A stretch of 64,000 nt of DNA from Hemileia vastatrix (Eukaryota; Basidiomycota; Pucciniomycetes; Pucciniales; Zaghouaniaceae): assembly GCA_030280995.1 (NCBI GenBank), contig JASXTE010000005.1:24593001-24657000 (forward strand), read 5' to 3'. The notes below the pieces were generated by a model. That model searched no databases. It saw nothing but the letters and a program-made list of their open reading frames with translations, and was not told the DNA's origin. The position numbers were made by a program, and so were the translations under genes. Numbering within the stretch: the stretch's first letter is position 1; the number at the start of each line of letters is the position of its first letter. Shown here piece by piece: positions 16,259-63,031 of this stretch.

Positions 16259-16319
16259 GTTTGATTCAGAAAAGAAAAATTGACCACACCCTCTATAGGA
16301 TGTAACCACAAACAACCCT

Positions 16320-18655: not shown

Positions 18656-18659
18656 GCTC

Positions 18660-18830: not shown

Positions 18831-18831
18831 T

Positions 18832-22629: not shown

Positions 22630-22634
22630 TATCT

Positions 22635-25468: not shown

Positions 25469-25537
25469 TCTTCCAGTCCAAACACCAAAAAGAGCCAACC
25501 AAAGAAAACAGAGATTCCAAAGAACTAGCAAGTTCTA

Positions 25538-25554
25538 CCCCACGTTGGGCACCA
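25538..25554 (-). other. Primer-binding site of element C
   Basis: On the minus strand TGGTGCCCAACGTGGGG begins four bases after the end of the 5' LTR. It starts with TGG, as expected for pairing with a tRNA CCA end, and differs from element D's site (TGGCGCCCAACGTGGGG) by one C-to-T change. The tRNA identity is not established. Confidence 0.8.
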
Positions 25555-25558
25555 GAAA

Positions 25559-26649
25559 TGTAGACAATCCTATAGAACTAGCTATAGGCCTTGACTATGG
25601 GAGTTGGAGAAAAACCAGAGAGAAAATCCCCTGTCCCTTTAGAAAAATAGAGTGAGATTTACTTGCTAAAGTAAGTTGGTTCCTGTTTTTCTAAAGCTCC
25701 TGTTTAACACACTTGACTGCTTGATGAGCCAAGAAAGTAGTCCCCAGATAGACTGCCAGACCAAAGAACTGAAATTTAGAACAAAGTCCACACCATAGAC
25801 AGCAAAGATACTTGATGTAGGCTGCAAATCCACACCAGAGACAGCAATAATACTTGTATAGCTTGCAAGACTATAACAGAGAAAACAGTTGCCAAAGTTA
25901 AGTTAAATGAAGAACTCGCTTGCAACAAACACAGCCAATTGTGGCCAGAAAACAGTGAAAACTGAGTGAGGAACAATGATATCACCTCCGGATGGTTGTA
26001 TGATGATTAAGGTTGCCCCAAACTGTCTTATTCACTATGTACACACAGACCACTAGCTAAGAGCCCATGCGCACCCACCAATCTGGCGCCTGTACCCGCC
26101 AAATTGCATAAAATACCCTCTTGAAGCACTCCCCAACCTCCTAAAACAGAGGCGGGCGGGCCGCCCGACGTTGGAGATGCCACCTGAGGCGGCCCGGCCT
26201 CCCTGAAGCCAGAAAACCAACAAAAACCACTAATCTACTTAGAAAAATTAGCTACAACTACTAAAACCTTTAAAACACGGAATTTTACTATAACAACATT
26301 GGGACATGAAATATAGAGAAAAATTAGCTCTATCCAATGGTACTAAGCACTTAACACTAAGACTTAAGGTTAGCCCGTAAAACACAAAAAACAAAATTAA
26401 ACAGCAATCTTTTATAATGAAAAATGAGGAAATGACCCCTTAAAACTCAGAATATGAAAAATGTCTACATGACATAAAATATAGAGAAAAACCAGGGCTA
26501 TCCAATGATAGTACCCACATACCCGCATACCCATTGTACACGGAATGAAACCAGAAAAATACCCAATTCCTTAACAGATGTCAAATAAGACATGCACAAA
26601 CCGCGTCAAATCACACAACAAAGGCCCCCGCCAATGTTGGAAGACCACA
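25559..26649 (-). repeat. 5' LTR of element C
   Basis: Matches 14479-15570 over its length with scattered substitutions and few indels. It is flanked on the right by the duplication TCGG and on the left by the primer site. It includes the GC-rich patch near 26150-26200 also seen in the partner. Confidence 0.93.
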
Positions 26650-33793: not shown

Positions 33794-33906
33794 GTTTATT
33801 CAGTATATGTATTATAAAAATATTTTTATTTTTTTCTATTTTCACTCCTTACTTTTAATTAAAATGTCTTAACTTTTTTTTTATTGTTTTTTTTGGGGTG
33901 AGGGAG

Positions 33907-35086
33907 TTTCAGCCCAGATATCTCTAGGACTGAGTATTTCTTATGCTTAAAATAAGATAACCTTAAGTAAATTAAGCTTATATCTTAAAAAATAAGGTTA
34001 AAATAATAATATATATTATTATATTATATATATATATAATTATTATTCTATTATACAACTTATAGTAGTTTAAATAGCTTATCCATAGCCTAATAATACT
34101 TATTAAGGTGTTAATGGAGTCATAATATACTTATCTTAAGTGATATGAAGTAATTATTGACATACATAAGCTTATATGTATACATAAATCTCATATTCAG
34201 TGAAATATGCAGTATATTATGTATATTTAGGTATATAAGTGAGTTTTAGCCCCTTAATAGCCTATAACCTTTGTTTTTCTGCTTATTTTAGGTCATATGG
34301 ACAAAATCAGTGGACTCACAACGCCTAAAGAAGCATAGACACCTATATCAGGCGCATACACCCAGTCTGGACAACTTAAATTACTTCCTTGGATGGTTAT
34401 TCACGGATTTATGGGTTGGAAGGACATTTCTGGGTTAATGTGGATGCTTGGGGATGTTATTGGGGGATTGGACATTTTATTTGTTTCCTTTATATGCTTT
34501 TGGTTTCATTAAATCTCTTTTTGATTATTTATTTTACCTGTTTCTTTATGGTATCTGCTTTTATCTGGATTTTCTATTTGTGGTATAGATCTGTGGTATC
34601 ATTAATAGTGATGGAGGGTCCTTACTGGAGGTCTGGGTGTTGAATCTGCTTGAATTGAACACCATAGGGAGGTGATGGGCCCTCACAGTGCTGTAATTGC
34701 CGGGGATAGCAGTGACATCATCTGGATTGAAGGTCTGTGCACTCCAGTGGATTTGGGTATAAGTAAGGAGGGATTTTGACGGTTATTTATCATCATTCAA
34801 TTACTACTATTCAAACAAAACACTACTATACAATTATTAGCATTCAGAAATATATTATAAAAGCCATTATAAATTGATATTATCATTATATAAGCTATAA
34901 CTATATTTTATTCATCTATTTTCCACCACTAGCACACATTTAAATCCAAGTATTGTGAGTTTTATTTGAGTATAACTATTTTATTAGTCTTCCCCTGAGG
35001 TTTAATCACTAAATTGTTTATCAATAAGTAGTAGGACCATAAATAAACACAATTATATCATACTTATATACTAGAATATACTGACA
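33907..35086 (+). repeat. 3' LTR of element B
   Basis: 1180 bp, collinear with 5693-6872. The first bases read TTTCAG instead of TGTCAG, a point change in the terminal dinucleotide. A polypurine tract (GGGGTGAGGGAG, 33895-33906) sits directly upstream. It is followed by the target duplication CATAC. Confidence 0.93.
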
Positions 35087-41055: not shown

Positions 41056-42119
41056 TTTGGAAGATGCTTTAGCCTATTTTTCTTTTCTTTCCAAAGACAT
41101 TACATAAACCCAAGGGAGCCAAATCTTCATCATCATCCCAGATATAATCTCTTCTCCGTTCTCAACATTCCTCAACTAAAATTCACTCAACTATTTAGAT
41201 TTTCTCCTGATTCTTTCATCAAACTTTATAAACTCATCTCCAAACATCCTATCTTTCATAATGATTCTCAAAATAAACAGTGTGATCCTGATATTCAACT
41301 TTCTGTTGCACTATGTTTCTTTGCCTCAAATGGAAATGGTGCTGCTGTAAAACTGTTTGAAAATATCTTTAGCATAGGATATGGTATGGTGATATTATAC
41401 AACAAGCGCTGTATAATTACCATCCTTTCCCTGAAGTCTCAAACACTTGCTTGGAAAACTCCACAACAGCGACTTAAATCCTCTCAAGTAATGCAAGCTG
41501 TAGTTTTCCCTGGCTGTGTAGGTTCTGTTGATGGCACAACTAAACCCCTGAGTCAAAAGCCTGCTCATGATGGAAACCATTATTTTGATTGCACAAAAAG
41601 GTTTCTTCAAAATGTTCTCCAATTTCACATCTTTCATGAACTAACTTTTAATCTTCTTTGTAGATAATCTATTGCCATTAAAATTGACTGTGACTTCAAA
41701 AAAAGATTATTTCTTTTCATAGTGGCTGCCCAGGCTCATGTCATGACTCCTCCATATTCCAAAGAATCAGGATTTCTCAAAGTCATTACTCATACTTTGA
41801 TGAATCTCAGTACCTCCTTGCAGACTCAGCATATGAAAGTGGAAAGTACATTATACCTGATTTTCATGGTGCAAATTTAGAAAATTACCCCCAAAAAAAT
41901 TTTAATTATCACCTTGCACAATCAAGAGCGCTGATTGAGCATGCTATTAGGATTTCAAAGGGAAGATTTTCTAGTCTCCACAATCTCAGAATCCAATTTC
42001 AAAAAAACTTGGAGATGAAAACAAAAAATTATTGGGTCATGACTTGCATTATACTCCACAAGATTCTAGCTGACCTAAAGAATGATTGGAATGATCTTTA
42101 TGAAGGAGAGGATCCTTAA
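41056..42119 (+). pseudogene. PIF/Harbinger-like transposase (DDE_Tnp_4 type)
   Basis: Exon 1 is open from 41056 to 41600 and reads through an N-terminal helical domain (FTQLFRFSPDSF, LSVALCFFASNGNGAA) to GCVGSVDGT, the first catalytic Asp, and the PLSQKPA...YFDCTK segment. An intron fits 41601-41663 (GT...CTAAC...TGTAG). Exon 2 opens with a TAA where the family has Tyr (R-Y-S-I). After a one-base shift come GCPGSCHDS, LLADSAY (second Asp) and SRALIEHAIRISKGRF (Glu). It ends at the TAA at 42117-42119. The enzyme would cut and paste TIR elements with 3-bp duplications. Broken by one nonsense codon and at least two shifts. Confidence 0.8.
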
Positions 42120-44887: not shown

Positions 44888-46134
44888 GCCAGGCTATCTC
44901 AGGAGCCCTTAATTTATATACTAAATTACTCGAATCATTTTAGAGAATAATGCTATACATTTTATGTAGTTACATTAAAATATCTTATTGATTAAAACTA
45001 TATAAATATTTTATAAGTAAAATAATTGTTATATTCATTTTTAAGAAAAATTTTATTACAGAGAAAGAAATTATATTCTGTAACATCATGGTGCATTTTG
45101 TATGTATTTAATATTTCTAAATTAATAAATTAATAATTTAAAATTATATTATAAGTGTAATAATAAATTTAACTTATAAAGTAAATATAATTTAAATAAT
45201 AAAATTTATATAAACTAAATACAACTTATCATATAATACTATCCATTAATATTGAACGCTTCCTTTACCCTTAAGTGTGTCACTAAAATTACTAAATTAA
45301 TTAAAATACTTATTTAATATGATAAATTGAAATTCTCACTCTAAATAAGTTATTTTATTAAATTAATTAATTTTTTCAATTCAATTAATAATTAAATTAA
45401 TTGAAATAGTTAAAACAATTAATTTTCTTTTCTTTATACTGAATTAAGATATATTATATACATTAAAGTGTGAAAATAATTCCTTTTGTTTTAATTAAGC
45501 CCTTTTCAGCTATATGTACTACCTGTTTAAGATTTTCTTTCTCACAGTTCTCAGGCTTCTGACTTACGTAGTTATCTATTATCTTAATTGTTTTGTTTTG
45601 GGATTTTATGGTGGGAAATTGGTTCCTTATTCATGGGCTTAAATTGTTGTTTCAATTTTTCACCTTATTTTTGAATGTTTCAATTAAATTAAACTACTTT
45701 TTTTTTAAAAATTACTATATTCTTTATAAATACAATTGAGACGCTTGAGATAGTCTTCTTGCCTATAAAAGGGCCTTTGAATCCTCTCTGTCAGTCATCA
45801 CTTACATTACATACATTTTACAAACTTACAATACATTATTTTTTTTAGCATTATAATTCTAATATAAATAATCAATAATTAATCTAAGGTTGCTTTAAGT
45901 TTATTAATAGTAAATATTGTTTGCCACACAGAGAAGACATGCTTACCTTATTAAAACTTTTACTAATTAACTAAACCTAACTGTTGCGTTATTCTTCATA
46001 AACTATAGTTGTATTACTCTCATTTTGTTTTAATTCTTTAATTAAATTATATATTTTTTTCATTTCTTTCTTTATTTTGTTGTCCTCTCTTTAGTTCTTC
46101 CTTTTTCTCTGTTCCATTTCTTCTTTTTCTTCTC
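44883..46134 (+). other. AT-rich region with a TATA box, possible solo LTR
   Basis: TGTAAGCCAGG at 44883 resembles the LTR start of A (TGTCAGCCAGG), and GCCTATAAAAGGGCC at 45752-45766 resembles A's TATA region (GCCTATAAAAGGCCC). No right end or target duplication was found. No gene. Confidence 0.3.
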
Positions 46135-46564
46135 CTTTTTCTAGAGGACCTGCCAACAGAACTCTTCTAAGGATAATCACCAAACAACAAAAGCTTCCCC
46201 TGGTTTGGAATCTTGTCACAACTTTACTCATTTTGGCTGCTCCTTCCAAATTAGGGAAAAACTAATCCAACAAATCAATAAGGTAAAAAAAGAAGGTAAA
46301 TTTAACAGATGTAAAAGAACTTGATGTAGACCAAAAAAGTATGGGGATAAGTAGAGTCATCAAATATTTTTTATTTTTTCATAAATATTTTATAAATAAC
46401 TCTTACATTTCAAATTCTTAAAGTAAATTAATGGCCCTACTACCCTGTGTTGTATAAATGGGAATCATGACAACATTTATTTGTTTCATGAGGTTCCTCA
46501 GCCTACACTTGTGGAAAGTCCCATACATTTGTTTCTAGATGTATCCAAATTTTGGCTAAAGGAA
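46135..46564 (+). pseudogene. Unidentified coding remnant
   Basis: A frame reads PTTLCCINGNHDNIYLFHEV and ESPIHLFLDVSKFWLKES just before the element D insertion at 46565, with stops upstream. The codon-like composition differs from the surrounding A/T-rich sequence. I do not recognise the family. It continues for only a few codons after D (60001). Confidence 0.25.
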
Positions 46565-46568
46565 TCGT

Positions 46569-47679
46569 TATGGTAAGGTAAACTCTTACAGTCGCCTTGC
46601 TGTAAGCAGAATCCGGAGGAGATATGTGGATTTAGCTGAAAACCCTGTCCTTCCAATAAAAATAACAAAATGGGAATTCTAAATCACTAAGCTAACCAGT
46701 CTACTTGGATCTGTTTGATAAAAATAATGAAACTCTAAAATAATTAACGCTTATTGAGATTTAAAGAAAGTGGCTGTTGAGAAAGAAATACTGATTACAA
46801 CAATTAAGGTGTACCAGTGAAAGATCTGTAAAGATTGACTTTTATGTTTTTATAATAATTTGAATTTTTATGAGACAGCAATAATCAAGTCCCAGCGACA
46901 AAGACCTTTCTAAAGATACCCTGTATGAAGTGTGTTTTAAATTGTTGAATAGTATTTCTAAAATGTTAAATATAAAAAAATATAAAGTTATAAGGGTATT
47001 ACAATTTATTTAATTTGTTGAGTAATAAAAAATGAGACTGTGGTGGTTAATGATTAAGCTGTATGATGTTTTTCCCCTCCTCAATTTCGAGTTTGAGAAG
47101 CGCTTAAGTATTCCTAGTCACGTGCCTAAGTTTTCCCCTCCAGAGCTCTTCCAGAGTCAATCCGGAGCCCGTACGGAGTCCGTACGGAGTCGAAACGGAG
47201 TCCGTCCGGACTTCCGGACTCAATTAGAACCTTAAAACTATAATAAAAAATTTAGAAAAATTACACATAATAGGGCTACTTCCCCTTTACATACCAAACT
47301 AATTTTCGTAGTCTGCGCAGCTCTAATTACCCCGTGAAAATTCATCGAAGTTAAGTAATTTCTGAAAACGTAAATATTTCTATAAAACTTTAAAATTCAT
47401 TTAAAAATATAAGAAAAATAGTAAAAATTCTGGGAAAATTTCCCAAGGTTCTTGAGTGACTTGACTTGATACTTATAAATTTTTCAGACCGTAAAAATAA
47501 GTTTTCTCCGCAAAATAAATTGTATTTGTGTAGGCATTTGCTCATGACCAATTTCTTCATATTTTAAACTCCAATAAATTAAATAAAACCCTTTTATAAA
47601 AAATAATAACGCCAATCTTGCACGCCGTAATAACTCCATTTACATATTTAGGTGCCGTACTAAACTTTAGGCTACCACA
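46569..47679 (-). repeat. 3' LTR of element D
   Basis: On the minus strand it starts TGTGGTAGCC and ends near TTACCATA. The purine tract GGAGGGAGGA (complement at 47680-47689) adjoins it. A small minisatellite of the unit CGGAGTCCGTA lies at about 47161-47215. Antisense gene 1 starts 124 bp from its edge. Confidence 0.95.
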
Positions 47680-47802
47680 TCCTCCCTCCAATCGAGAATG
47701 TCCCCATTCTTAAAACTTTGCATAAGTGGTCGAACACAATATTCATCTTTAACCTTCAACCACCATCTTCTTTAATCAACTATAAAATTCATCTTCATCA
47801 AT

Positions 47803-48479
47803 ATGTCTTCCAAAGAACTTGTTGCTCCATGTGAACTCTGCGCTCGATACCAGGTACCTTGTTTAATGTCCAACCCTAATCTTCCTGGCAGAACAGCTTG
47901 CGACTTATGCCGTGTGAAAAAAGTCAAATGCAACTGGCAAATAGTTCCTTCTAAAACAAACATATATTTAGGACCAGCAGCTCTCCCTGATCCCTCAACT
48001 TCTAAAAAGCGATCCAAAATTCCTGTCTTCTTAAAACGAATAAGATCAAAAACAGCTTCAAAAGTTCAATCTTCATCAACGGATCCCGGCCTAATTTTGC
48101 CTTCACAAGATCCTAATCCTATAACGCCAGTACCCCCAACTAACTTTGCTGAGACTATGTTTCCTGGCTCTAAATGTAAGACCCTATTTATCTTACTAAA
48201 AAAACTTTTAATAAAAATTGACTAAACCTATGACTCAATAACATATTTGAACTTCTAGCTGTCGAAATAACCAACACTGATGATGTTGGTAGAGTGAAGA
48301 CGGACTATATCAATCATTACCCAAATTTTCATTGCTATCTTTTTCTTGACTTTACTAATGAGTTGAAACGAAAAATGCTGGCCTATTTTCAAGAAACTCC
48401 AGCTAATAACCATGAAGACCTCATGAAAAGAAGAATTTTAATGCAAAGCTTTGATAATGATGTAGAACAATTTCAATGA
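47803..48479 (+). CDS. Antisense gene 1 of element D, Zn2Cys6-like protein
   Basis: Two exons, 47803-48175 and 48259-48479, joined across an 83-bp GT-AG intron in phase 1, give about 197 residues with no stop. Residues 11-46 hold C-x2-C-x6-C-x12-C-x2-C-x6-C (CELC ... CDLCRVKKVKC), the spacing of fungal binuclear zinc clusters with the basic run in the second half. A Ser/Pro/Lys linker follows. The C-terminal ~45 residues (KRKMLAYFQETPANN, MKRRILMQSF) look helical and align with C gene 1 and with both gene 2 copies. It lies antisense to the retrotransposon. Likely a nucleic-acid-binding regulator or silencing antagonist, but this is inference. Confidence 0.75.
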
Positions 48480-49080
48480 AATTATCTTTTCTAACAGTAT
48501 AACTTGATAAAATTTTGTTTTTGCTTGGTCTTCTTAAACTTTCAACATAAATGATGTTTTCTTTCTTCTCTGGCTTGATATAACATAAAATAAAATAATA
48601 TAAATCTTGTGATGATTCCACTACTGAGAGCAAGGTTTGAATCCCTTCAGACTCCCATATACCAGTCTTCCTTCTTGTCACAGCATTGAGAGAGTGGATC
48701 TTCCTATGAGCCAAATACTCCTGATTCCAACCTCATAGGGCCCCCCACTGAGCCGAATTCTATGATTCCAATCTAGCCATAAGGTCCTCCAAGCTTCACA
48801 CCAAAAAAAATGGCCTAACTATGAGGCACTAAAAAAAATCATTCCCTAAAATCCAACTACCATCCTAACTTCTGATTCCTTCATCACAATTTTCAAACTT
48901 TGCTATACAGCAAACCCATAAAATACTTTTGCCAGGCTTCCAATAATAATATTAACTTTAGACCATGTTAAAGCGCCACAAATTTCACCTAAATAACCAT
49001 TATGCTTTCCTTAGCATCATCACCACCTAAAATTTTAACCTCCTAAAGCTATCAGCACCCAATTCCAGAAATAATTGAAT
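48480..49080 (+). other. Region between antisense gene 1 and the hairpin array
   Basis: No open frame of substance. It probably includes the 3' untranslated region of antisense gene 1. ATTCCAACCTCATAGGGCC and a similar GATTCCAATCTAGCCATAAGG occur at 48724 and 48764, a weak duplicated block. Confidence 0.4.
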
Positions 49081-49082
49081 AA

Positions 49083-49550
49083 CCAGTTTAGAGTCTTAGT
49101 GGACAGTGATAAATTAAAAGATTGAATTGAGTTATCCAAACAAGATTGACATTCCAATTTAAAGTCTTGGTAGACCAAACATATAATCAATTGCCAGTTT
49201 ATGGTCTTGGTGGACCAAAGATCGTTTAAGTGCATAAATATCTTGATATATTCCTAAGTAAGGCCTAGGCTTGACCAAAGATTGAATAAATTTGATAATC
49301 CAGTTTAATGTCATAGTGGACCAAAAATTTGATCGACAAGTAATCCAGTATAAGGCCATAGTGGTCCAATGAATGTTGAATTATCCTGCAGATATTAATT
49401 TTCCAGTTTAAAGTCATAGTGGACTAAACAATGAATGAACTACCAGTTTAAAGTCATGGTGGACCAAACATTTAATCGATAAGAAATCCAGTTTAAGGTC
49501 ATGGTGGACCCAACACTTGTTAATAGTCCAGTTTAAGGTCTTGGTGGACC
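49083..49550 (+). repeat. CAGTTTA-hairpin repeat array of element D
   Basis: Nine copies of CAGTTTA-N-(stem)-N6-(stem), at about 49083, 49155, 49195, 49301, 49349, 49404, 49444, 49489 and 49529. The stems are AGTC/GACT in some (49404) and GGTC/GACC in others (49195, 49489, 49529). A few have one mismatched pair. The array ends about 95 bp upstream of the ATG of antisense gene 2, the same position as the array in element C. Confidence 0.85.
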
Positions 49551-49644
49551 TAACAACTTCTCTATCCTTGAACCCAGATTTTGCCACCAGCTTTCTTCAT
49601 CCTAGTTTCAAGTTTTCTTCTTCAAAAAAATATCTCCTAACAAG

Positions 49645-50658
49645 ATGAAACCTTCTGACTTCATTGCTTCAGCTGATCAATCTTGCAAATACTGTGCCTT
49701 CACCCATAGGGAATGTATCTTCTCTTTTAACTGGCAAAAGCACACTTATAACAGGGCCTGTTTATCCTGCTATGAGAAGAAAAGAAAATGTTCTGGCTTG
49801 AACTGTGGTTCTTTCCCCATCACTGCTACTAGCTTCGCCGCCTTCTGCAAACCTCTTCCTTCTTCTTCACCTTCTACTCCACCCCCTATTCCATCAACCT
49901 CTAAAGATCCCATCCCTTTTTCTCCATCAGCCTATTTAAATCTTTCTCCATCACCTAATCCTCTGGGTCCTTCTCTCCAATCTAGACTTGCTGCTACTCC
50001 CCCAAGAACTCTTGCTGCTCCCAGGGCCATGCTTCAACCTTCTAACAATTCTTCTCCTTCTTCCAACATCTTGAAGCACAAAAGTTCCTATAATAGCCAG
50101 CAGTCTTCATCTTCTCTTGTATCATCCAAAAGGCCCAGAACATCTACTTCAAACACCAAATCCAACACCTGTCCTCCTCATCTATCAAAAATAAAAAATC
50201 CTTTTCTAAACATAAAAAATCCCACTCCATTACCAAGTAAGCCATTTATCTATGATCATGATAGTGTTGACACAGGTTAGTTGTCTCTTTTTATTTTCTT
50301 AATCTTCAGGTTTTAATTTGCTGATATTTTAATTTGATAAACGTCCACCGGTTCTCCAATTTCATATTCTGCTTATGAACTACCAGAACCTAATCCAAGC
50401 TTCCCTAGAGTTCCAATTCACCTAGTGTCTGAAAAGCTTTTTGCTAATTTTAATAACCTTATCGCTTATTTCCAACGATACCCGCCCTCTGATAGGTCAG
50501 AATCTTGGATGAGAGAGCAACTGTTAAGAGACCTTTTCAAAATAGCCAACTGGCTTCAACACTATCGTGACCGTGAAATAAGATTCAAATCCCAGGAAAT
50601 CGATCAAGGTCCTTCTAAATTTTCTAATTTCGATTCTTCAAAAGATAACAACCCTTGA
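49645..50658 (+). CDS. Antisense gene 2 of element D, Zn2Cys6-like protein
   Basis: Exon 1 is 49645-50275 and exon 2 50387-50658, with a 111-bp GT-AG intron in phase 1; the product is about 300 residues without a stop. Residues 13-49 hold C-x2-C-x6-C-x14-C-x2-C-x6-C (CKYC ... CLSCYEKKRKC). A long Ser/Pro/Asn-rich disordered linker follows, then a C-terminal helical segment (NNLIAYFQRYPPSD, MREQLLRDLFKIANWL) similar to that of gene 1. The acceptor was chosen because it keeps the frame and avoids an in-frame TAA at 50338. Antisense to the retrotransposon; the element C counterpart is at 17103-18655. Confidence 0.75.
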
Positions 50659-50689
50659 TGGTGTTCTTCCTGGTATGTAGCTTTCTTGA

Positions 50690-50996
50690 ATAATGTTTGA
50701 AAAATAAAATATAAACATCTAAACTACCTAAAACTAAAATACCTTTTATTATTATTATTATTATTATTATTTTTTTTTTTTATTTTTATTTTTTTTTATT
50801 TTTTTATTTTTATTTTTATTTATTTTTATAATTTTTTTTTTAAAAAAAAATAGTTTTGAAATAAAAGTTAAAATTTAATTTTTAAAGAAAGATAAACGAA
50901 TGTGAAAAGAAAAAAAAATAAAAAAATAAAAAAAGTAATAAAAAAAAGTAATAAAAAATTTTTTTTTTAAAATAAAATTTTAAAAAATGCCCCCCC
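50690..50996. repeat. A/T simple sequence
   Basis: ATT and TTTTTA microsatellite runs followed by A-rich runs. No gene. It precedes the structured modules and matches the A/T-rich spacer at 18660-18830 in element C. Confidence 0.7.
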
Positions 50997-51880
50997 GGCC
51001 ATTTGATGAGCCGTACCCTCGACATCATACCCACATCCAAGTGCAACTTGATGTGGTTACACAATTTTGAGAAATTGAAAAGTAAAGAAAATAAATGAAA
51101 GTTTTTAGAAGATAATTTTTATAATGATGATCACTGGGTGGGCTCCCTCCAATTTATAAAAATGATTTGAGACCACCAGTGAGCATCACCTTTACAATAA
51201 TTCATAATATATATTAAAGAAAAGAAATCACAATCTAACATATAAAAAATCAAAAACAAAATAAAATAAAAGAATCTTGAATCCGGCGTTGAGAGCGGTG
51301 TCTCTTGATTTGTTCCAGTTTATAGTCTTAGTGGACTTCCTAAAATTAAAAGACAAAGCCAGGATTCAACTAGAAACAGGGAAAATTTTGGAAACGAACA
51401 TTATGGGGTAATTGTGTATAGAGCAGCCAGCCCATCAATTACCCCCACACTTTCCAATATTAAATTAAGAAGGTTCCCCTGTGAACACTTCTTCCAATAA
51501 ATTTTAAAAATTTTCCAACACTATCTTCACCCATATTTTAAGAATTTTAAGTTTTCGAAAATTTCAAAGAAGGTCTTCTTGCATTTCGTTAAGTTTCATC
51601 ACAGTTTCGTTGTCCATATACAGTGTAACGATAGTAAAGTATTTTGATAAAAAAAGAAGATAGTTTATCCTCGTTGCGGAGGTATTCATAAAATTTTGTT
51701 GATATCATAGTTTATCCTCATTTCGGAGGTATAAATTTAATAAAAGTCATTAAAACTGTAGTTTATCCTCATTTCGGAGTTCGTCCATATAATTTCATAA
51801 ATGTCATAGTTTATCCTCATTGCGGAGGAATCCATAAAGTTTCATTGATATCATAGTTTATCCTCATTGCGGAGGAAGAC
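50997..51880 (+). promoter_or_regulatory. Structured 3' module region of element D
   Basis: M1 has GGCCATTTGATGAGCC, then CCACATCCAAGT pairing with ACTTGATGTGG (51031-51056). M2 pairs TCACTGGGTGG with CCACCAGTGA (51131-51182). A CAGTTTA hairpin lies at 51316. M3 pairs GGGGTAATTG with CAATTACCCC (51405-51445) and is followed by an AAGAAGG/CTTCTT hairpin. Five TAGTTTATCCTC-N-GGAGG hairpins are spaced 46-51 bp apart (51661, 51708, 51759, 51807, 51854); the last covers the C-terminal codons of pol. The order of blocks is the same in element C. Confidence 0.65.
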
Positions 51881-54800
51881 TTCAGCACTCCTGGTGCCTC
51901 TAGGATAGAACCGTTTCACTTGATCGGCCGCTACCCTCTTCTTCAATACTACTCCATCCAACTCTTCTAGCACATATGAACCGCCGGAAACTTGCTCCTT
52001 GATTTTATACGGTCCATTCCACCTATCTTCAAACATCTTTCCCCACTGACTTTCCAAACTCCTATTATACACCAGGACCATATCTCCTGGGTTCAAAGGT
52101 TTCCTTAATCGATGTGCCAACCGCTCATCCCAATATCTAACTGATTGATTTTGGATCTTCATCATCTGTGAATATGCCTTTTCTAAATATTCTTCTTTCT
52201 TTTCTAGCTGCATCATTCTTGCACACAATAATTCTTCAGTAGTTTTGACCGTGTCCCAGTCAACTCCAAGATATGATTCAGCTTCTAAATCAACCGGTAA
52301 AACTGCTTTCTGTCCAAAAACAAGTTCATAAGGTGAAAATCCGGTCGTCCTTTTGGCAGTGATTTGATCAGCAAATAAAACTAAAGGTAAATAGTGCCTC
52401 CACTTTTCGGCACTTGTCCCACACATTTTAACTAAAGCATCCTTAATAACTTGATGCCCTCTTTCAACCATGCCTTCAGCTTCAGGATAATATGGGGTTG
52501 CTACCCTAACCTTTGATCCAACTTTCAATACGGCCTCTTTAAACTCTGTCCCAAATTCAGGACCTCCATCTACCGTTACCAACTTCATCACCCCATACCT
52601 ATATACCCAATTATTCAAAAAAAATTCTGCCACATTTTTGGCAGTTAAATTAATAAGAGGCGCTGCCTCTACCCAACCAGATAAATCATCTCTGGCCACA
52701 ATTAAATATTTATACCGTCCCTCTTTTATATGAACGGCATCTAAACTAACTCTCCCAAAGAGTGTATATTCACCGGTCGCGCATCCAGGTTCTTTTGGCC
52801 TTAAATAACTTCGTCTTTGACATTCTTCGCATGACTGAACCCACTGTTTAACAGCCATCTTCATGCCAGGCCACCAAAATCGATCAGAAATTCTTCTAAA
52901 TGTTTCTCCAACGCCTCTATGCCCAAGATCTTCATGCAGTGATTTCAAAACTAATTCTTGCCCCTTCTGTTGAGTTATAACTACTTGAGGATTTGGATAC
53001 CTCCTCCTCATTAAACGTCGACCAGACAGGTAAAACGTAGATGACTTCCTCTTGATAGCCACCCATTCATCATCTTCACACTCTTCTGGCTTCTCTAAAG
53101 TCAACAAATATTTGACTAACAAAAAATAAAAACCAGTCTGACCCCAGACTTCATCTTGAAAATCGATTAATATAACATCAATAGGGACTTCTCTATCACC
53201 AATATCACCTGCACAAGAATGAGCCAATAATCGTTGACCCCTAAATAAATCTTTAATCGAACTATGTCGACGTTTTTCTTCTGAACCTTTGGATCCTTCG
53301 AAAACCGTATTTGAAAATACCTCTTTCTCTTTATCCACCCTTTTATTTAAATTCTCTAATTCTCCAACATATACACCATTCCTTAATTTACTACTATCCC
53401 ACACTACCAATCCATCTTCCTCTACATACACCACATCTTCTTCTACCTCCTCTCTGCCGAATTTATCTACACCTTTTCCAACACCTTTATTAACATAAAA
53501 ACTATTTTCCAGTTTATCCTCTTGGTGGAGGTCATCATCATCATAATCTAAACACAATAGTCCTGCCATTTTAACCTCATGGGGGAGGTATGGAAAGTCT
53601 TCAGCTCCTTTAGTGCTGGCTTTGATAATAGGTATATCTTCATCGAACTCTTCTGAGTCTGAATCTTCTTCAGTGGGTGGTCTCCTTGATAAACCATCTG
53701 GCATAGTAAAAGTTTTGCCAGGCTTATGAACTAAATCAAACGAAAAATGTTGAATAAAAGCTACCCATCTCGTCATGGGTGCGTTCGGTAAACTTGGGGA
53801 ATTAATCATCTGGATTAACGATTTCGCATCCACTTGCAACTCAAAATGTTGCCCCCACAAAATATGCTGAAGTTTATTCAGTATTTTTGCCACACCACAT
53901 AATTCCAATTTTGGTTGAGAATATCTTGATTCGACCTCAGTAAATACTACAGATTCATACCTAACTGGCCTGATGTAACCAGCTTTATCCATCTGAGACA
54001 AAACCGCCCCAGCTGCAACCTGACTTGAATCAACTGCTAAATAAATTCTACCAGAATCTTTTCCATAATCCAACTTGTGCAGGACTAAATCCTTCCCCAC
54101 AACCTCCTTCAACTTCACAAACGCCTTCTCACACTCTTCATCCCACTCCCAGTCTGCATCCTTTCTCGTTAACCGTCTCAATGGAGCTGCCAATGAAGAA
54201 AAGTCCTTGATAAACATTCTAACATATACGCAAACGCCTAAAAACCCTCTAACTTCGGTCCTATTCTTGGGTCTTGGCCAGGAGTGAATTTTGTTAACTT
54301 TCTTCTTGGACATAATCCTACCCTCTCTACATACCACATGGCCTAATATTTCTAAGGCTGGAACACAACATGAAAATTTTGAACCTGAAATAGTTAAACC
54401 AGCCTCTTCAATTCAAAACAAGATTCTTTCTAAAGTAATTGCAAACTCCCAAATGAATTTGCGTATCTCGGGATTCTCTTCCAACACCTGGTTATCATAT
54501 TCGGTTGTTGGTCCCTTAATTCCTCCATCATCTATAAAGATTCCAGCATATTGTGGAATTTCATCTTGAAGGATCCAAGCCATCTGAGCTTGATAAACTG
54601 CAACCGAATTTGTTGCTCCTTGAGGTAATCTTGTTAACTGTAAACGTCCTAGTGGTGTATCGAATGTAGTGAGAGGCCTTGAGTCCGGATGTAACTCTCT
54701 CTCATCATATCCACCCATAATATCTCCCAAACCATAACACACTCTCCCTGCAAATGCTTCAACAAACTCCTCAGCACTAGGCGGTATCCCAGCATCCTTT

Positions 54801-55699
54801 ATTGTAACCCTATTTAATTCCCTAAGATCATGAACAACTCTAAGCTTGCCATTAAGTTTCTTGATACAAAATACAGGACTAGAATAACTTGATGTTGATT
54901 GCTCATACAGTCCAGTGCGTATCTGTTCTCTGACAACTTCAATATAGGCTTCTTTTAATGCAGCCGGAATAGGAATCGGTTTCTGCTGCCACGGTTCATG
55001 ACATACCACAGGAATCTTGTAAGGCTCCCCATAGGAATGCTTCAACACACCCCTCTCCTCTTCTACAAAAGCAATGGCCTTCTCTCGCTTGACCATCACA
55101 TCCAACAACAACTTCTTCTCTTCACCAGACAACCAACCATCAGGTCCAAAATTAACAACACCCAGTCTCTCAAAAGTGATTCTTGACGTCTCAGAAAATT
55201 CAGGCGGATTCTTTACCAAGGGACTTTCATAAGGATCTCTTGATAACCTTGGTCTTCTCAAGGGTGGATTTAATTCAGCAGGTAGCGGTTCATTAATAGG
55301 TCAAACTTTATTTGCTACTTTCTTATATTTGGCTGCGTCCACATCTAAATAAACTTGAGGTAAAACATTTTCTTTTGTATCGCCATTAAAACGTTCATCA
55401 AATGAATCTTCTTGATTGCCAGAATCGGAATAAGAAAAATTAGAAAAATATTTTATTTCATTTTTAAATTTTACCCTTTTCTCCTTTCCCTTGTCTAATT
55501 TATAAACAGATTTTCCAACACCTTTGCTTCCCTTTTCAAACAGTAAATCACCCGTAAAGAAAGTTGGCAGTTTAACCTCTTGCTGGAGAACCGGAATTGA
55601 ATTTTCACAAAAATTATTTTTTTGTGTTTTAAATATACTGAGATTTTTTATTGGATTTTGATAAGATTTTCGCAGTTTACCCTCTTGCTGGAGGTCCAA
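51851..55699 (-). pseudogene. Pol of element D (one frame, two TGA codons)
   Basis: A single minus-strand frame runs from 55699 to the TGA at 51851-51853 and is interrupted only by TGA at 55301-55303 and at about 54413-54415. Element C has Arg at both places (KIRPVNEP and LFRIEEP), so both are CGA-to-TGA changes. RT shows LRVVHDLRELNRV and FIDDGG (about 54530-54545); RNase H shows AVDSSQ, LELCGVAK and VDAKSL. Integrase has the zinc finger HEDLGHRG ... CEECQ (about 52935-52830), core Asp in LDAVH, Asp in VDGGPEF, Glu in EGMVERGHQ, and a C-terminal NGPYKIKEQ module. All catalytic residues are present. Ends RNEDKL. Confidence 0.9.
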
Positions 55700-55845
55700 A
55701 ATAGAAGGAGATAATTGCAGTTTAACCTCTTGCTGGAGGTCCGGAAATGAATTTTCACAAAAATTATTTTTTTGTTTTAATTATACTGAGATTTTTAATC
55801 AGATTTTGATAAGATTTTCGCAGTTTACCCTCTTGCTGGAGGTCA
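55567..55845 (-). repeat. ~150-bp tandem duplication in the pol linker of D
   Basis: 55569-55695 and 55718-55843 are near copies, each bounded by CCTC/GAGG hairpins and encoding LQQEGKLRKSYQN...KNLSI. The upstream copy on the minus strand lacks two bases in the A-run after KT, which turns its frame into a stop. The downstream copy reads through. The duplication and this deletion explain why the -1 frame does not run into the main pol frame. Confidence 0.8.
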
Positions 55846-56111
55846 TAAAACATACCCTTCCAATTTTTATCCAACCTAATTTGGCCCATTTTGCCTTTTT
55901 CACCATTTTTAAATTTAATAGAAAAACAGGGTAAATCCAATAAACATATAGAAAAGTCCATAACATATTTGCACTCCAAAGTAATATTAACAGAAAATAA
56001 TTGAGAATCCACTTGAATTATCTCCAAGTGAGCTGACCTATTGCAATCCGGGATCTCATTATGAGGAGAGATTACAACATTAGAGCGATCAGCCCCTGCT
56101 ACCCCAAAAAA
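55764..56111 (-). pseudogene. Pol N-terminal linker of element D in the -1 frame
   Basis: It starts at the frameshift heptamer at the end of Gag-protease and continues open through EIPDCNRSAHLEIIQVD, conserved in element C, to a stop at 55764. It lies in the -1 frame relative to Gag-protease. An ATG at 56120 is in this frame, but the conserved upstream heptamer makes frameshifting a more likely entry. Confidence 0.65.
56099..56111 (-). promoter_or_regulatory. Putative -1 frameshift site of element D
   Basis: On the minus strand Gag-protease ends CAT TTT TTG GGG TAG. T TTT TTG is an X XXY YYZ heptamer in phase, two codons before the stop, as in element C (T TTT TTA). A G-run and GCAGGGGCTG follow, which might form the downstream stimulator. 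Confidence 0.68.
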
Positions 56112-58708
56112 TGAGGGCATTCATCCCTTTCCAACAAACATAATTCACCAGAAGCCGTCCGTTTTATATGCCGCTTCTTGGTGCAAACACAACACTGGCA
56201 CAGAGTAGTAATCCCTGGCCGTGTTTCCCAACCTTCATCTCCAGGAGGCGCTAAACGCATATGTAACCTCCGCATATCTTCACCAGTGATCTCCAAACTA
56301 ATCCCCATGCCAGCTTGATACCCTATCCTGGCCTCAAAATCCATCAAAAAAGGACCACCAAGAACAGTTTTGACTGCTCCTCTGGCCACATAAAAGTGAA
56401 CCTTACCAACAGATCCACCAATGCCTAACCTGAAATGCTCAGCTGTACCCATCAGCTCTGTTGCATGCCCTCCAATACCTCTGAGGTTTCCCCCAGTCCC
56501 AATTTTAATTGGCAAGCCTATACTCGTCGCTTGCTCCAATGAAATTAAATTAATTTGAGACCCTGAATCGACCAAGGCCTTAACTTCTTTACCATTAAGA
56601 GTTACCACCAGGTAACCCAGGGGAGCGGAAAAATGTGTATCTACATCTTCCCCAAACTTTTCAGCATTTTCACAAATATATTCCACCTCTCCAGTGGAAA
56701 CCCGACGCCTCGTCAAATGCTTCTTTTGCTTTTCAGCAAGCGCCGGACTAATCGTTAATAACTCCCCCAAAGATAAGGGAATCTGAAGTTGATTCACCCT
56801 ATTCAAAACTGCGTCTATCGCATTAGCTTGACCAGAAACTACTGGCCGCTCATACTGGACCTTTGATTTAACAACCTTGGCCCTGGGTACCTCTTGAGGT
56901 CCAACCGAGCCATCTTCACCCCCCATTATAACATCTTCACTTTCTATAACCCTAACTCCGTCACCAGCTTCTTGCACTAATCCTGATCCATCGCTAGTCC
57001 TTCTTACACCCTCCATTGGGATGGGACCGCTAAAACTTGGTCTGGGTAGAGACGCCAACGGTACGTCCTCCTCAGAATCCGAATCATCATCTGGCATAGG
57101 CTCACCATTTAAATCAAACTTGCCATAACTAGGGGGCCCCATATCAGCAATCCCCTTCTGCATTTTATATAATTTGTCCTTAGAGTAAGGGTTCAATTTG
57201 TTGGTGGCAGTTTGAGCACTAGAATTCTTGTCCTTAGAGTAAGGGTTCACTTTGTTATTGGCCTTGCCAGGATTAGCCCTCAATTGGCTCTGAATGCTAC
57301 TTTTCGCCTTAGTAGCAGCTGCTCTTCTAGCAGCATTAACATCGTATTCGCCAGACATACAGCTACCCTCCACCTGAGCAACCGTCGCCAGCTCTAAACC
57401 ACCAAAAGAAGTAGAAAATGTGGCTTTACTGACCTCTTTCTCCTTGCCCTTGTCAGCTTTACCACCATTACCATTACCATTTTTGCCACTCTTGGCATTA
57501 ACATCTTCATCCGTCACCTCTTCAAATCTGGCTCTCCTTTCAGCCGTTAAACTTCTTCTGACCAAATCAGAAGGAGACTGTCCATCACTGGGCTTGATGA
57601 ACAAACCATCAGGAAATTTATAAACTTTACCATCAAATAAAACTCGCCCAGCATCCATATCCTTATCAAGAGCAAAACAAACTGTTGCTCTGTGCCCCCT
57701 CCTATTACAATAGGAGCACACCTTTGGCTCATCATAGACACCTCTATATCCATTACCACCATTCCCACCATTTCTCCCATTGCCTGGGAAGCGGTTACCA
57801 TTATTATTGCCATTATAATTTCGACGTTCATACCCTTTAGACTGATAAGAAGTTGACGTCGACGAAGAAGCGATTGGGGCCTTATTGGCCTTCTGGGTTT
57901 CTTGAACAAATATTTTTAATTGTTTCGTTAAATCGGCCAAGTGATCGACCATCTTATTATCTACATTACCCTCAACTTTAGCAGCAGGTAATCCCATTTG
58001 AGCCTTCTTGGCCTCCTGGGCTTTGACCATAATATCGTTGTTTTCGGCCAAAACTTCGCTAACCTTGCTAACATATTGAGTGCATGACTCTTGATATTTG
58101 TCCAACGCCAATAACTTGAGATGGGCCTGAATGTTCTCTTTGATAACCTCCAGAGCCGGCAGTTTCTGCTCACCATTAGGCAGTTCCTTCATCAAATCTT
58201 TTCTTGAAAGATCCTTCAAGACGTCCATTCGAATATCCCTGCTGCATGCTGTCCAAAACAAATCTTTTGCTTGGTTCTCATGCACTAACTCGTCCACCAG
58301 TATGAGATATTCCACCACTTCATCAAACTGAACACAGAGCTTTTTGAAGTCAGCCATAGAAGAAACACCACCTTTTGCTTGCCAGTCTCCAACAATTTTA
58401 TTGAGGTCCATCATAGTAAACCTAACACCCCATCTATCAACCATAGCTTTAGAAAGCTTAACCCAATCCTTGTCCTTGAATGCCTGCATAGCAATAACCT
58501 CTTTTTCCACCTCCCTATCAGCAATAAAAAACCTAACTTGCTTCACCATATCCACATGGGAAGCACCATCAACAGCAGCAGCAGCTTCATACCTGCTAAT
58601 GAACCATTTAACCTCCTCCCCATCAAACTTTGGGCCATCCCAAGAAACAATTCTAACTGAGGGAGTAAGAGGGTTAGAAGATCCAGAAGCAACAGCAGAA
58701 GAAGACAT
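56099..58708 (-). CDS. Gag-protease polyprotein of element D
   Basis: Intact 869-residue frame. The start ATG at 58708 is the first after the primer site (58867-58883). The N-terminal Gag part has SWDGPKFDGEEVKWF and MVDRWGVRFTMMDL. A canonical CCHC knuckle (C-x2-C-x4-H-x4-C, CSYCNRRGHRATVC) lies at about residues 329-342, after a Gly/Asn-rich segment. A Ser/Lys-rich linker follows, then the aspartic protease with ALVDSGSQINLIS near residue 714 and a GGPFLMDF segment. After it comes a Cys-rich tail (CQCCVCTKKRH) and the frameshift heptamer. It would form virus-like particles and process the polyprotein. The same frame is shattered in element C. Confidence 0.93.
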   Translation of the reverse strand: MSSSAVASGSSNPLTPSVRIVSWDGPKFDGEEVKWFISRYEAAAAVDGASHVDMVKQVRFFIADREVEKEVIAMQAFKDKDWVKLSKAMVDRWGVRFTMMDLNKIVGDWQAKGGVSSMADFKKLCVQFDEVVEYLILVDELVHENQAKDLFWTACSRDIRMDVLKDLSRKDLMKELPNGEQKLPALEVIKENIQAHLKLLALDKYQESCTQYVSKVSEVLAENNDIMVKAQEAKKAQMGLPAAKVEGNVDNKMVDHLADLTKQLKIFVQETQKANKAPIASSSTSTSYQSKGYERRNYNGNNNGNRFPGNGRNGGNGGNGYRGVYDEPKVCSYCNRRGHRATVCFALDKDMDAGRVLFDGKVYKFPDGLFIKPSDGQSPSDLVRRSLTAERRARFEEVTDEDVNAKSGKNGNGNGGKADKGKEKEVSKATFSTSFGGLELATVAQVEGSCMSGEYDVNAARRAAATKAKSSIQSQLRANPGKANNKVNPYSKDKNSSAQTATNKLNPYSKDKLYKMQKGIADMGPPSYGKFDLNGEPMPDDDSDSEEDVPLASLPRPSFSGPIPMEGVRRTSDGSGLVQEAGDGVRVIESEDVIMGGEDGSVGPQEVPRAKVVKSKVQYERPVVSGQANAIDAVLNRVNQLQIPLSLGELLTISPALAEKQKKHLTRRRVSTGEVEYICENAEKFGEDVDTHFSAPLGYLVVTLNGKEVKALVDSGSQINLISLEQATSIGLPIKIGTGGNLRGIGGHATELMGTAEHFRLGIGGSVGKVHFYVARGAVKTVLGGPFLMDFEARIGYQAGMGISLEITGEDMRRLHMRLAPPGDEGWETRPGITTLCQCCVCTKKRHIKRTASGELCLLERDECPHFLG

Positions 58709-58866
58709 CCCAATAAGTAATGAAAAGCGTTAACAATCGATAAAATAACAAGCCTCTTGCAGGCCAATAACAAAAATCCAATCAGAGTTCCAGAAAATAA
58801 GCCTCTTGCAGGCTAATAACGTTCTTGATCCAAGTAAGTTTTTTAAAGAAAGCTAGAGAAATCGAA

Positions 58867-58883
58867 CCCCACGTTGGGCGCCA
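58867..58883 (-). other. Primer-binding site of element D
   Basis: TGGCGCCCAACGTGGGG on the minus strand, directly inside the 5' LTR. The match to a tRNA-like 3' end may extend further, since GTTCGA, a T-loop-like sequence, follows. Which tRNA is not established. Confidence 0.85.
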
Positions 58884-58885
58884 AC

Positions 58886-59996
58886 TATGGTAAGGTAAAC
58901 TCTTACAGTCGCCTTGCTGTAAGCAGAATCCGGAGGAGATATGTGGATTTAGCTGAAAACCCCGTCCTTCCAATAAAAATAACAAAATGGGAATTCTAAA
59001 TCACTAAGCTAACCAGTCTACTTGTATCTGTTTGATAAAAATAATGAAACTCTAAAATAATTAACGCTTATTGAGATTTAAAGAAAGTGGCTGTTGAGAA
59101 AGAAATACTGATTACAACAATTAAGGTGTACCAGTGAAAGATCTGTAAAGATTGACTTTTATGTTTTTATAATAATTTGAATTTTTATGAGACAGAAATA
59201 ATCAAGTCCCAGCGACAAAGACCTTTCTAAAGATACCCTGTATGAAGTGTGTTTTAAATTGTTGAATAGTATTTCTAAAATGTTAAATATAAAAAAATAT
59301 AAAGTTATAAGGGTATTACAATTTATTTAATTTGTTGAGTAATAAAAAATGAGACTGTGGTGGTTAATGATTAAGCTGTATGATGTTTTTCCCCTCCTCA
59401 ATTTCGAGTTTGAGAAGCGCTTAAGTATTCCTAGTCACGTGCCTAAGTTTTCCCCTCCAGAGCTCTTCCAGAGTCAATCCGGAGCCCGTACGGAGTCCAT
59501 ACGGAGTCGAAACGGAGTCCGTCCGGACTTCCGGACTCAATTATAACCTTAAAACTATAATAAAAAATTTAGAAAAATTACACATAATAGAGCTACTTCA
59601 CCTTTACATACCAAACTAATTTTCGTAGTCTGCGCAGCTCTAATTACCCCGTGAAAATTCATCGAAGTTAAGTAATTTCTGAAAACGTAAATATTTCTAT
59701 AAAACTTTAAAATTCATTTAAAAATATAAGAAAAATAGTAAAAATTCTGGGAAAATTTCCCAAGGTTCTTGAGTGACTTGACTTGATACTTATAAATTTT
59801 TCAGACCGTAAAAATAAGTTTTCTCCGCAAAATAAATTGTATTTGTGTAGGCATTTGCTCGTGACCAATTTCTTCATATTTTAAACTCCAATAAATTAAA
59901 TAAAACCCTTTTATAAAAAATAATAACGCCAATCTTGCACTCCGTAATAACTCAATTTACATATTTAGGTGCCGTACTAAACTTTAGGCTACCACA
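58886..59996 (-). repeat. 5' LTR of element D
   Basis: Nearly identical to 46569-47679 with equal length. It carries the CGGAGTCCGTA minisatellite at about 59478-59532. Followed by the duplication TCGT. Confidence 0.95.
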
Positions 59997-60065
59997 TCGT
60001 CATCACTTTAAAACTAGGGAAATTGATATATATTAGTTTTTTATATATTAATTTATGTAGTTATA

Positions 60066-60375
60066 ATAAATTTGGTGATTTTCACCCCTTACTTCAATAA
60101 AATGCAAAGGAGGGTATTGCCAAATTTTTAAATCTGAAATGTGAAATTAATGACTTGGAAAATTTTTGGTGATACCCACCTCTTGCTACAATAAAATGCA
60201 GGGGAGGGTATTGCCAAATTTTTATATGAAACTTGCGAAAAAATTGACTTGAAATTTTCAGGGGGGAGTATTGCCAAAATTTCATATAAGACTTTCAAAA
60301 TTCTTTACTTGAAGGAATTTTGGTGATACCCACACCTTATTTCCATCTAATTCAGGGGTGGGATTGGGAAATTTT
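60066..60375. repeat. Cluster of imperfect inverted repeats
   Basis: Repeats of TTTTGGTGATACCCAC...GGAGGGTATTGCCAAA lie at about 60070-60128, 60165-60222 and 60310-60372, with a partial arm near 60258-60280. Each can fold because TTTGG and TACCC pair with GGGTA and CCAAA. Unit length is about 95 bp. No gene. They could be nested miniature elements or a young satellite. Confidence 0.65.
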
Positions 60376-61723: not shown

Positions 61724-61737
61724 TAGAAGATAACCTT

Positions 61738-62915
61738 TGTCAGTATAGTCTAGTATATAAGTATGATATAATAGTGTTTATTTATGGTCCTACTACTTAT
61801 TGATAAATGATTTAGTGATTAAACCTCAGGGGAAGACTAATAAAATAGTTATACTGAAATAAAACTCACAATACTTGGATTTAAATGCGTGCTAGTGGTG
61901 GAAAATAGATGTATAATATATAGTTATAGCTTATATAAAGATAATATCACTTTATAATGGCTTTATAATATATTTATGAATTCTAATAATAGTATTGTAG
62001 TGGTTGTTTGAATTGTAGTAATTGAATAATGATAAATATCCGTTAAAATCCCTCCTTACTTATACCCAAATCCACTGGAGTGTACAGACCTTCAATCCAG
62101 ATGATGTCACTGCTATCCCCGGCAATTACAGCACTGTGAGGGCCCATCACCTCCCCATGGCGTCCACTTCAAGAAGATTCAACACCCAGACCTCCAGTAA
62201 GGACCCTCCATTACTATTAATGATAACACAGATCTATACCATAAATAGAAAATCCAGATAAAAGCCGATACCATAAAGAAACAGGTAAAATAAAAAATCA
62301 AAAGGAGATTTAATGAAACCAAAAGCATATAAAGGAAACAAATAAAATGTCCAAGCCCCCAATAACATCCCCAAGCATCCATATTAACCCAGAAATATCC
62401 TTCCAACCCATAAATCCTTGAATCACCATCCAAGGAAGTAAATTAAGTTGTCCAAACTGGGTGTATGCGCCTGATATATGTGTCTATGCTTCTGTAGGCG
62501 TTGTGAGTCCACTGATTTTGTCCATATGACCTAAAATAAGCATAAAAACAAATTTTATAGCCTATTAAGGGGCTAAAACCCACTTATATACCTAAATATA
62601 CATAATATACTGCATATTTCACTGAATATGAGATTTATGTATACATATAAGCTTGTGTATGTCAATAATTAATTCATATCACTTAAGATAAGTATATTTT
62701 GACTCTATTAGCACCTTAATATGTAATATTAGGCTATGGATAAGCTATTTAAACTACTATAAGTTATATAATAGAATAATAATTATATATATATATAATA
62801 TAATAATATATATTATTATTTTAACCTTATTTTTTAAGATATAAGCTTAATTTACTAAAGGTTATTTTATTTTAAGCATAAGAAATACTCAGTACTAGGG
62901 ATATCTAGGCTGACA
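61738..62915 (-). repeat. 3' LTR of element E
   Basis: 1178 bp, starts TGTCAGCC and ends CTGACA on the minus strand. It is collinear with both LTRs of B, including the AT tract and the 84-codon open stretch. Confidence 0.93.
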
Positions 62916-63031
62916 CTCCCTCACCCCAAAAAAAACAATAAAAAAAATGTTAAGACATTTTAATTAAAAGTAAGGAGTGAAATATAAAATAAAAAAAAAG
63001 TTTTTATAATACATATACTGAATAAACAGTA

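Follow-up and report, generated by a model that had tools for sequence, protein, structure and literature searches.

Two antisense genes encoding a half-swapped, zinc-cluster-like domain in a Ty3/gypsy retrotransposon of Hemileia vastatrix: candidate element-encoded regulators

Why should a retrotransposon carry two spliced genes on the strand opposite to its gag and pol, and what might their products do for it? The question is raised by a stretch of 64,000 nucleotides of Hemileia vastatrix (contig JASXTE010000005.1, positions 24,593,001 to 24,657,000, hereafter the window), in which a Ty3/gypsy element, here called element D, carries two genes, D1 and D2, on the plus strand between the end of pol and its 3' long terminal repeat (LTR), with counterparts, C1 and C2, in a sister element, C (Table 1). 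We lean, if not strongly, towards the pair being genuine accessory genes whose products would be nuclear regulators that bind and act on the DNA of the element carrying them. Accessory genes in antisense have been described before, in plant Retand and in fungal Boty (brtn), and given these precedents the D/C pair is a variant of a known architecture.

The arrangement of two antisense genes with one intron each had been proposed from inspection of the letters only (the sequence-only reading), and it was confirmed by coordinates and strand. Both introns have GT-AG ends, and the spliced products are of 197 (D1) and 300 (D2) amino acids. The longest plus-strand open reading frame (ORF) starting with methionine in 47682-51800 is of 211 amino acids and contains D2 exon 1, a length reached by none of 300 dinucleotide shuffles of the region (mean 69, maximum 138), and the 124 residues of D1 exon 1 were reached in 5 of 300, the length of the D1 ORF alone being moderately unusual. 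On the sense strand of the same region such ORFs have at most 66 residues, thus no env-like gene is found there. As the genes lie opposite the genomic RNA, their introns would survive reverse transcription. The start codon of D1 is 124 bp from the edge of the 3' LTR, that of its counterpart in C 49 bp from an edge at 15570.

Element C had been said to carry the same pair, in the same order and orientation with matching intron places and phases, and this is so, with four phase-1 introns at matching sites. The pair had also been called intact in both elements, which holds for D and fails for C. The frame of C1 shifts ahead of its intron, with a TAA at 15892 in the first frame, and C2 has in-frame TGA codons at 17169 and 17403, its later part (17639-18220) lying in a different frame. 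The intactness of D itself says little, because the insertion is young (its LTRs are 99.1% identical across a 1113-bp BLAST match) and its pol region has two in-frame TGA codons, at 54413 and, just 5' of pol, at 55301, where the ORF of element C is open. These two codons make this copy of D look no longer autonomous.

More can be learnt from what the broken and the intact copies share. The antisense exons of C and D have 25-41% amino-acid identity and all four can still be aligned. When the D exons were compared with the six frames of C over 15573-19900 they scored 105, 86, 125 and 58, each best in a plus-strand frame and all collinear, the best of 60 query shuffles of the same exons reaching 57, 50, 93 and 58. 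With the frame fixed the scores were 97, 86, 125 and 58, which for each exon were reached by none of 200 codon shuffles, the test of D2 exon 1 using only 17103-17640 of C2; frames free of constraint would not be expected to outscore every shuffle. Identity at third codon positions, pooled over 320 aligned codons, is 0.32 against 0.25-0.29 from composition, and by exon (expected value in brackets) it is 0.40 (0.28) and 0.28 (0.26) for D1 exons 1 and 2, and 0.30 (0.29) and 0.29 (0.25) for D2 exons 1 and 2. Since the exons are alignable while third positions are near chance, the antisense proteins look constrained over a long divergence, and since synonymous sites are near saturation a ratio of nonsynonymous to synonymous substitution cannot be computed for the C/D pair. 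The argument of the sequence-only reading, that retention in two diverged elements speaks for function, stands in this form; it does not stand on the state of the genes, the C copies being dead and the intactness of D uninformative. Identity by codon position was also tried as a test of selection, with the first two positions exceeding the third, yet codon-shuffled controls behaved alike and it was dropped as an artefact.

The proteins begin with the spacing C-x2-C-x6-C-x12/14-C-x2-C-x6-C that had been reported, the middle spacer having 12 residues in D1 and 14 in D2 by a count made by eye, and the six cysteines are invariant across D1, D2 and C1. As in the Zn2Cys6 domains of GAL4, LEU3 and PPR1 there are two CX2CX6C halves, and as a whole sequence D1 scores 22.5 bits against the 21-bit cut-off of Pfam Zn_clus (PF00172). 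With the halves scanned apart, the second half of D1 matches positions 1-14 of the model (23.3 bits) and that of D2 positions 1-15 (14.7 bits), which is the first half of the model. In C1 it is the first half that has a match, to positions 16-32 (14.2 bits) and so to the second half of the model. When D1, D2 and C1 are combined into a three-row profile, it finds the solved LEU3 and GAL4 domains with halves exchanged (best expectation value, E, 0.04), and D1 exon 1 matches PPR1 (E 0.0046) over a stretch that starts at the second half of D1. The observation that the basic run lies in the second half, unlike Gal4, agrees with this, the order of halves being opposite both in the half-wise Pfam scan and in the profile. 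Orthodox Zn2Cys6 membership was rejected because the halves that match do so in exchanged order. A further difference is the linker of 14 residues in D2. The cysteine domain resembles a Zn2Cys6 cluster with its halves swapped.

For the C-terminal exon of D1 (72 residues) AlphaFold2 predicts helices at residues 23-45 and 51-71, with a mean predicted local distance difference test score (pLDDT) of 70.6 that rises to 85-88 over residues 31-60. The second exons of D1 and D2 resemble each other with a score of 49, which none of 500 shuffles reached, whereas for exon 1 of the two genes 19 of 500 shuffles scored as high, a weaker result than for the whole proteins. Among the other pairs of tails the shuffles as high were 0 of 500 for C2/D2, 6 for C1/D2, 36 for C2/D1 and 86 for C1/C2. 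D1 and D2 look like copies of one ancestral gene, the sequence being clear on this for the D C-terminal exon only; common descent is supported by that exon, by the cysteine plan and by the place of the intron, and not by every comparison.

What such proteins might bind is suggested by a repeated 21-base motif, NNTC-N6-GANN-NTAAACT, with a 4-bp dyad, the pattern of which was fixed after copies had been seen. The window contains 34 exact copies, 16 in C and 18 in D and all on the sense strand of the elements, and the opposite strand and the rest of the window have no copy; in five block-wise base shuffles of the window the pattern occurred 0, 0, 0, 1 and 1 times. They span 49082-55842 in D and 16377-22573 in C. 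Between the antisense genes there are 17, in each element in an array just upstream of gene 2. Another nine lie at the pol end or beyond it, six of them in D and three in C, and the remaining eight, five in D and three in C, fall within pol or the gag-pol junction; seven of these eight are in frame in listed ORFs and the copy at 55842 is out of frame. This is the layout, dense arrays in one orientation of a short element-specific motif (34 of 34 copies in C or D), that a system like the VANC proteins of plant transposons would call for. The motif as a conserved peptide was considered and rejected, as none among the 120 listed of 712 relatives of D pol holds the peptide read.

The outer two pairs of the stem played no part in picking the copies. 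Of these two, the inner one is G-C in 20 copies and C-G in the other 14, and the outer one is Watson-Crick in 27 of the 34 and G-U in two. Among 31 distinct rows 96.0% of stem cells are paired, with a covariation of 0.469 where shuffles give 0.121 and none of 500 is as high, the copies being related to each other. The pattern fits a hairpin in RNA as well as a dyad in DNA.

A second candidate target is found in the LTRs. CGG is the usual half-site of Zn2Cys6 proteins, and the densest CGG/CCG clusters in the window are those of the two D LTRs (47161-47280 and 59461-59580), built on an 11-bp repeat. Per 120 bp they count 12 and 11, where shuffles give 2.35 and 2.19 and not one of 20,000 is as high; this test took the 3' LTRs to 47677 (D) and 15567 (C). 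As a feature common to the LTRs of both elements CGG enrichment was rejected, that of C not being above composition, and the cluster supports a regulatory reading in D only.

It can be proposed that each gene gives a small, probably nuclear protein with a six-cysteine zinc cluster, a linker with basic runs and a two-helix module that probably serves for pairing. For gene 1 the promoter would probably be an antisense one within the 3' LTR, and for gene 2 it would probably lie in the spacer rich in motifs. Most likely the proteins would bind the dyad-motif arrays, the CGG-rich LTR segment of their own element, or both, and would regulate or de-repress it; expression, promoters, zinc and DNA binding, target and effect are all points that we infer. 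A narrower version, in which the two half-swapped zinc-cluster proteins read the 21-base motif, dispersed over the element and densest at the presumed promoter of gene 2, as a system of self-recognition and so lift silencing by the host or switch the element on, is put forward tentatively and must be considered doubtful.

A number of results weigh against the regulatory reading. As whole sequences D2 (8.3 bits) and C1 (16.3 bits) miss the Zn_clus cut-off, separate scans of the six halves left three with no match in that model, and the predicted structure of the cysteine domain is of low confidence (pLDDT 58), with two short helices and no match in the PDB at E <= 10. Compared over their whole length, D1 and D2 give a weak score of 60, which 2 of 500 shuffles also reached. 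The score of D2 exon 2 against C equals the best of its 60 query shuffles and is borderline, and the third positions of D1 exon 1 show that saturation is incomplete. For the motif, two of the five covariation measures do not exceed shuffles: all 500 did as well in the number of pairs altered on both sides, and 168 of 500 in the number of further pair types. A structure shifted by +1 keeps a score of 0.275, and the signal comes largely from the division of the copies into two motif classes, the outer pair within a class not being significant (fractions 0.086 and 1.0). The CGG/CCG clusters of the C LTRs count only 8 and 6, and a cluster within D pol, at 51901-52020, is itself above composition (7 against 2.37, fraction 0.005). 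Finally, the protein search that the sequence-only reading had looked to turned up no relative of D1 or D2 at E <= 10 among 1761 and 23 scored candidates, in a database in which the pol search does find rusts; missing relatives are weak evidence, since antisense spliced genes of repeats may go unannotated and diverge fast.

Other explanations have to be set beside this one. The motif may be a hairpin of the genomic transcript used in Gag binding, packaging or dimerisation, with the proteins acting on RNA or on something else and the two features unrelated. The two sides of the stem change together, all seven copies folded (of the 34) take up the 4-bp hairpin at minimum energy, and copies occur in coding sequence as well, always in the sense orientation. 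We nevertheless think this unlikely, as only one of the seven folds clearly beats its shuffles (z -3.41, the others -1.71 to 0.38), half of the copies sit between the antisense genes, and Rfam gave over 46000-60100 a single match, far below the gathering score. That match, to a small nucleolar RNA family at 49374-49462 (E 0.51), covers motif copies and was taken as chance. A role for the antisense transcripts as RNA, through double-stranded RNA, small RNA or transcriptional interference with the ORFs incidental, is the least probable of the alternatives; antisense transcripts that possibly regulate retrotransposition have been discussed for plant elements (PMC7264820), but here it is as proteins that the C and D genes resemble each other, and splicing is in frame in both genes.

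That the genes are passengers, a host zinc-cluster gene picked up by an ancestral element, duplicated and persisting without a role, would fit with the broken copies in C and with the faster divergence of the exons compared with pol, in which C and D share 65-78% identity (46-68% in pieces of gag-protease). It is quite unlikely in view of four exons that are still similar while third positions are close to chance, of six cysteines that do not vary in D1, D2 and C1, and of an intron phase and gene order that have been kept, as an unselected ORF should by now be unrecognisable. It is improbable, too, that the proteins act after reverse transcription, in nuclear import of the integration complex or in the choice of target site. 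Both proteins have basic runs, nuclear functions have been proposed for plant antisense products (PMC7264820), and the 4-bp target duplications of C and D are similar (TCGG and TCGT), yet nothing links the proteins to integrase, the core of which was not found in C.

The carrier itself has the hallmarks of Ty3/gypsy: LTRs, a target duplication, a stretch like a primer-binding site (PBS), a polypurine tract, and the order gag, protease, reverse transcriptase, RNase H, integrase. In its pol RVT_1, RT_RNaseH and Integrase_H2C2 are above the Pfam cut-off and rve is just under it (30.2 against 32.6 bits), and no chromodomain was found in the Pfam scan. The polypurine tract before the 3' LTR reads GGAGGGAGGA on the sense strand, and beside it both elements have a palindrome, GAATG-N4-CATTC (47696-47709 in D, 15587-15600 in C). 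Residues 514-853 of D pol, covering RNase H and integrase, have no tblastn match in element C (E <= 1e-3), and the integrase core seems to be missing from it. As C has LTRs that are 97% alike and a target duplication, it may have moved in trans or lost the core by deletion after insertion.

The search with D pol gave 712 relatives, and 11 of the 120 listed carry an organism name; named among those listed are Puccinia coronata, P. striiformis, Austropuccinia psidii and Tilletia indica, and two are records labelled as a Sphingobacteriaceae metagenome bin. The latter (P0010, P0046), being rust-like gypsy pol proteins, are probably fungal contamination. Together with the G+C content given below, the relatives of pol point to a rust-like host. 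Scans of viral and prokaryote contigs with pol gave no locus, as expected of such collections; with D2 exon 1 the viral contigs gave a few pattern matches, none confirmed, and no locus, and one motif pattern gave no locus in them either. NCBIfam produced only one match, at E 0.082, far under the cut-off.

Elsewhere in the window, which has a G+C content mostly of 0.26-0.45, there is a satellite-like array of diverged repeats of about 610 bp, 72-78% alike, at 27017-32900. Repeats of about 1.2-1.3 kb, 94-97% alike, at 5693-6873, 33794-35086 and 61737-63027 probably constitute the LTRs of the window's other gypsy family, and a 203-amino-acid ORF on the plus strand at 41056-41667 resembles, judged by eye alone, a harbinger-type transposase.

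Table 1. Features of elements D and C, with positions in the window
Feature	Position	Strand	Details
Element D, Ty3/gypsy	46569-59996	minus	13.4 kb
D 3' LTR	46569-47679	minus	edges from TCGT duplication and polypurine tract
D 5' LTR	58886-59996	minus	followed by PBS-like stretch TTGGCGCCCAACGTGGGG
D target-site duplication	46565-46568 (left), 59997-60000 (right)		TCGT, read from sequence
11-bp repeat in D 3' LTR	47163-47210		CGGAGTCCGTA, core of CGG/CCG cluster
Gap from 3' LTR edge to D1 start codon	47680-47802	plus	123 nt; polypurine tract, palindrome, D1 leader
D1 exon 1	47803-48175	plus	six-cysteine domain and basic linker
D1 intron	48176-48258	plus	83 nt, phase 1, GTAAGA...CTTCTAG
D1 exon 2	48259-48479	plus	C-terminal domain, two helices predicted
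Seven exact motifs between D1 and D2	49082-49550	minus	just 5' of D2
D2 exon 1	49645-50275	plus	six-cysteine domain and long Ser/Pro-rich linker
D2 intron	50276-50386	plus	111 nt, phase 1, GTTAGT...CTACCAG
D2 exon 2	50387-50658	plus	C-terminal domain related to D1 exon 2
Six exact motifs at or after D pol end	51314-51875	minus	
D pol	51851-55300	minus	reverse transcriptase, RNase H, integrase; Pfam matches
Five exact motifs, D pol and gag-pol junction	53508-55842	minus	four of five in pol frame
D gag and protease ORF	56099-58729	minus	Pfam aspartyl protease, E 5.6e-9
Element C, sister element	14479-26649	minus	LTRs 97.0% alike over match; duplication TCGG
C1, D1 counterpart	15619-16258	plus	frame broken
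C1 intron	15949-15998	plus	phase 1
Ten exact motifs between C1 and C2	16377-16951	minus	
C2, D2 counterpart	17103-18655	plus	stops and frame change
C2 intron	18171-18239	plus	phase 1

The closest known systems include a viral one. HBZ of HTLV-1 is spliced and has a bZIP fold. Its product is localised to the nucleus (PMC11963269) and it has an antisense promoter in the 3' LTR (PMC7264820). As proposed for D, a gene that runs antisense to a retroelement, next to its 3' LTR, codes for a nuclear regulator, with another domain. In plants Retand, Grande and RIRE2 agree with D in position, in antisense orientation, in a suggested DNA-binding product and in tandem repeats at that place (PMC11963269, PMC7264820); in Retand, where antisense ORFs separate pol from the 3' LTR, 97% of clusters have a TRP28 domain and about half have tandem repeats at this site (PMC11963269). 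The differences are that there is here a zinc-cluster-like domain, two related spliced genes and a fungal host, and TRP28 (PF04195) is not among the Pfam matches of the D and C antisense proteins at E <= 10.

The sequence-only reading had known of no fungal equivalent, which in its general form is not correct. Boty, of Botrytis and Sclerotinia, is among the carriers of antisense ORFs between pol and 3' LTR (PMC7264820), and brtn of Botrytis cinerea Boty is mentioned repeatedly (Zhao et al. 2011, as cited in PMC7264820, PMC8365987, PMC4227169 and PMC5987419). What holds is that no zinc-cluster antisense gene in a fungal retrotransposon was listed by paper searches of an open-licence library: the passages checked in PMC7014384 give separate counts for Zn2Cys6 genes and for gypsy elements, and PMC3411680, which deals with Laccaria elements, contains none of the terms antisense, zinc, opposite and additional ORF. 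Boty is alike in being a fungal gypsy element with an additional antisense gene; it differs, by description only, in that a single gene is mentioned where D has a pair, and its gag-pol has a chromodomain (PMC4227169), which the Pfam scan did not find in D pol.

The function of antisense accessory genes in LTR retrotransposons, known from plants and from one group of fungi, has been described as unknown (PMC7264820, PMC11963269), and with a product that has a recognisable domain of DNA-binding type, and candidate motif arrays in the element itself, the question of binding becomes directly testable. If the answer were positive, one of the main folds of fungal transcription factors would gain a variant with swapped halves, and there might be a clue to the persistence of retrotransposons in rust-like genomes, which are rich in repeats. 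A parallel in layout is offered by the VANC proteins of Arabidopsis VANDAL transposons, which bind short motifs arrayed one way, mainly in noncoding parts of their own elements (PMC5735166, PMC10398659), and which share with D an element-specific short motif, dense arrays in the same orientation and fast-evolving proteins of the element's own. VANDAL bears a transposase whereas D is a retrotransposon, binding and anti-silencing have been demonstrated for VANC, and the likeness drawn here is one of motif layout only. If self-recognition were true of D1 and D2, they would be an independently evolved counterpart of plant VANC in a fungal retrotransposon, made from a rearranged version of the main transcription-factor domain of fungi.

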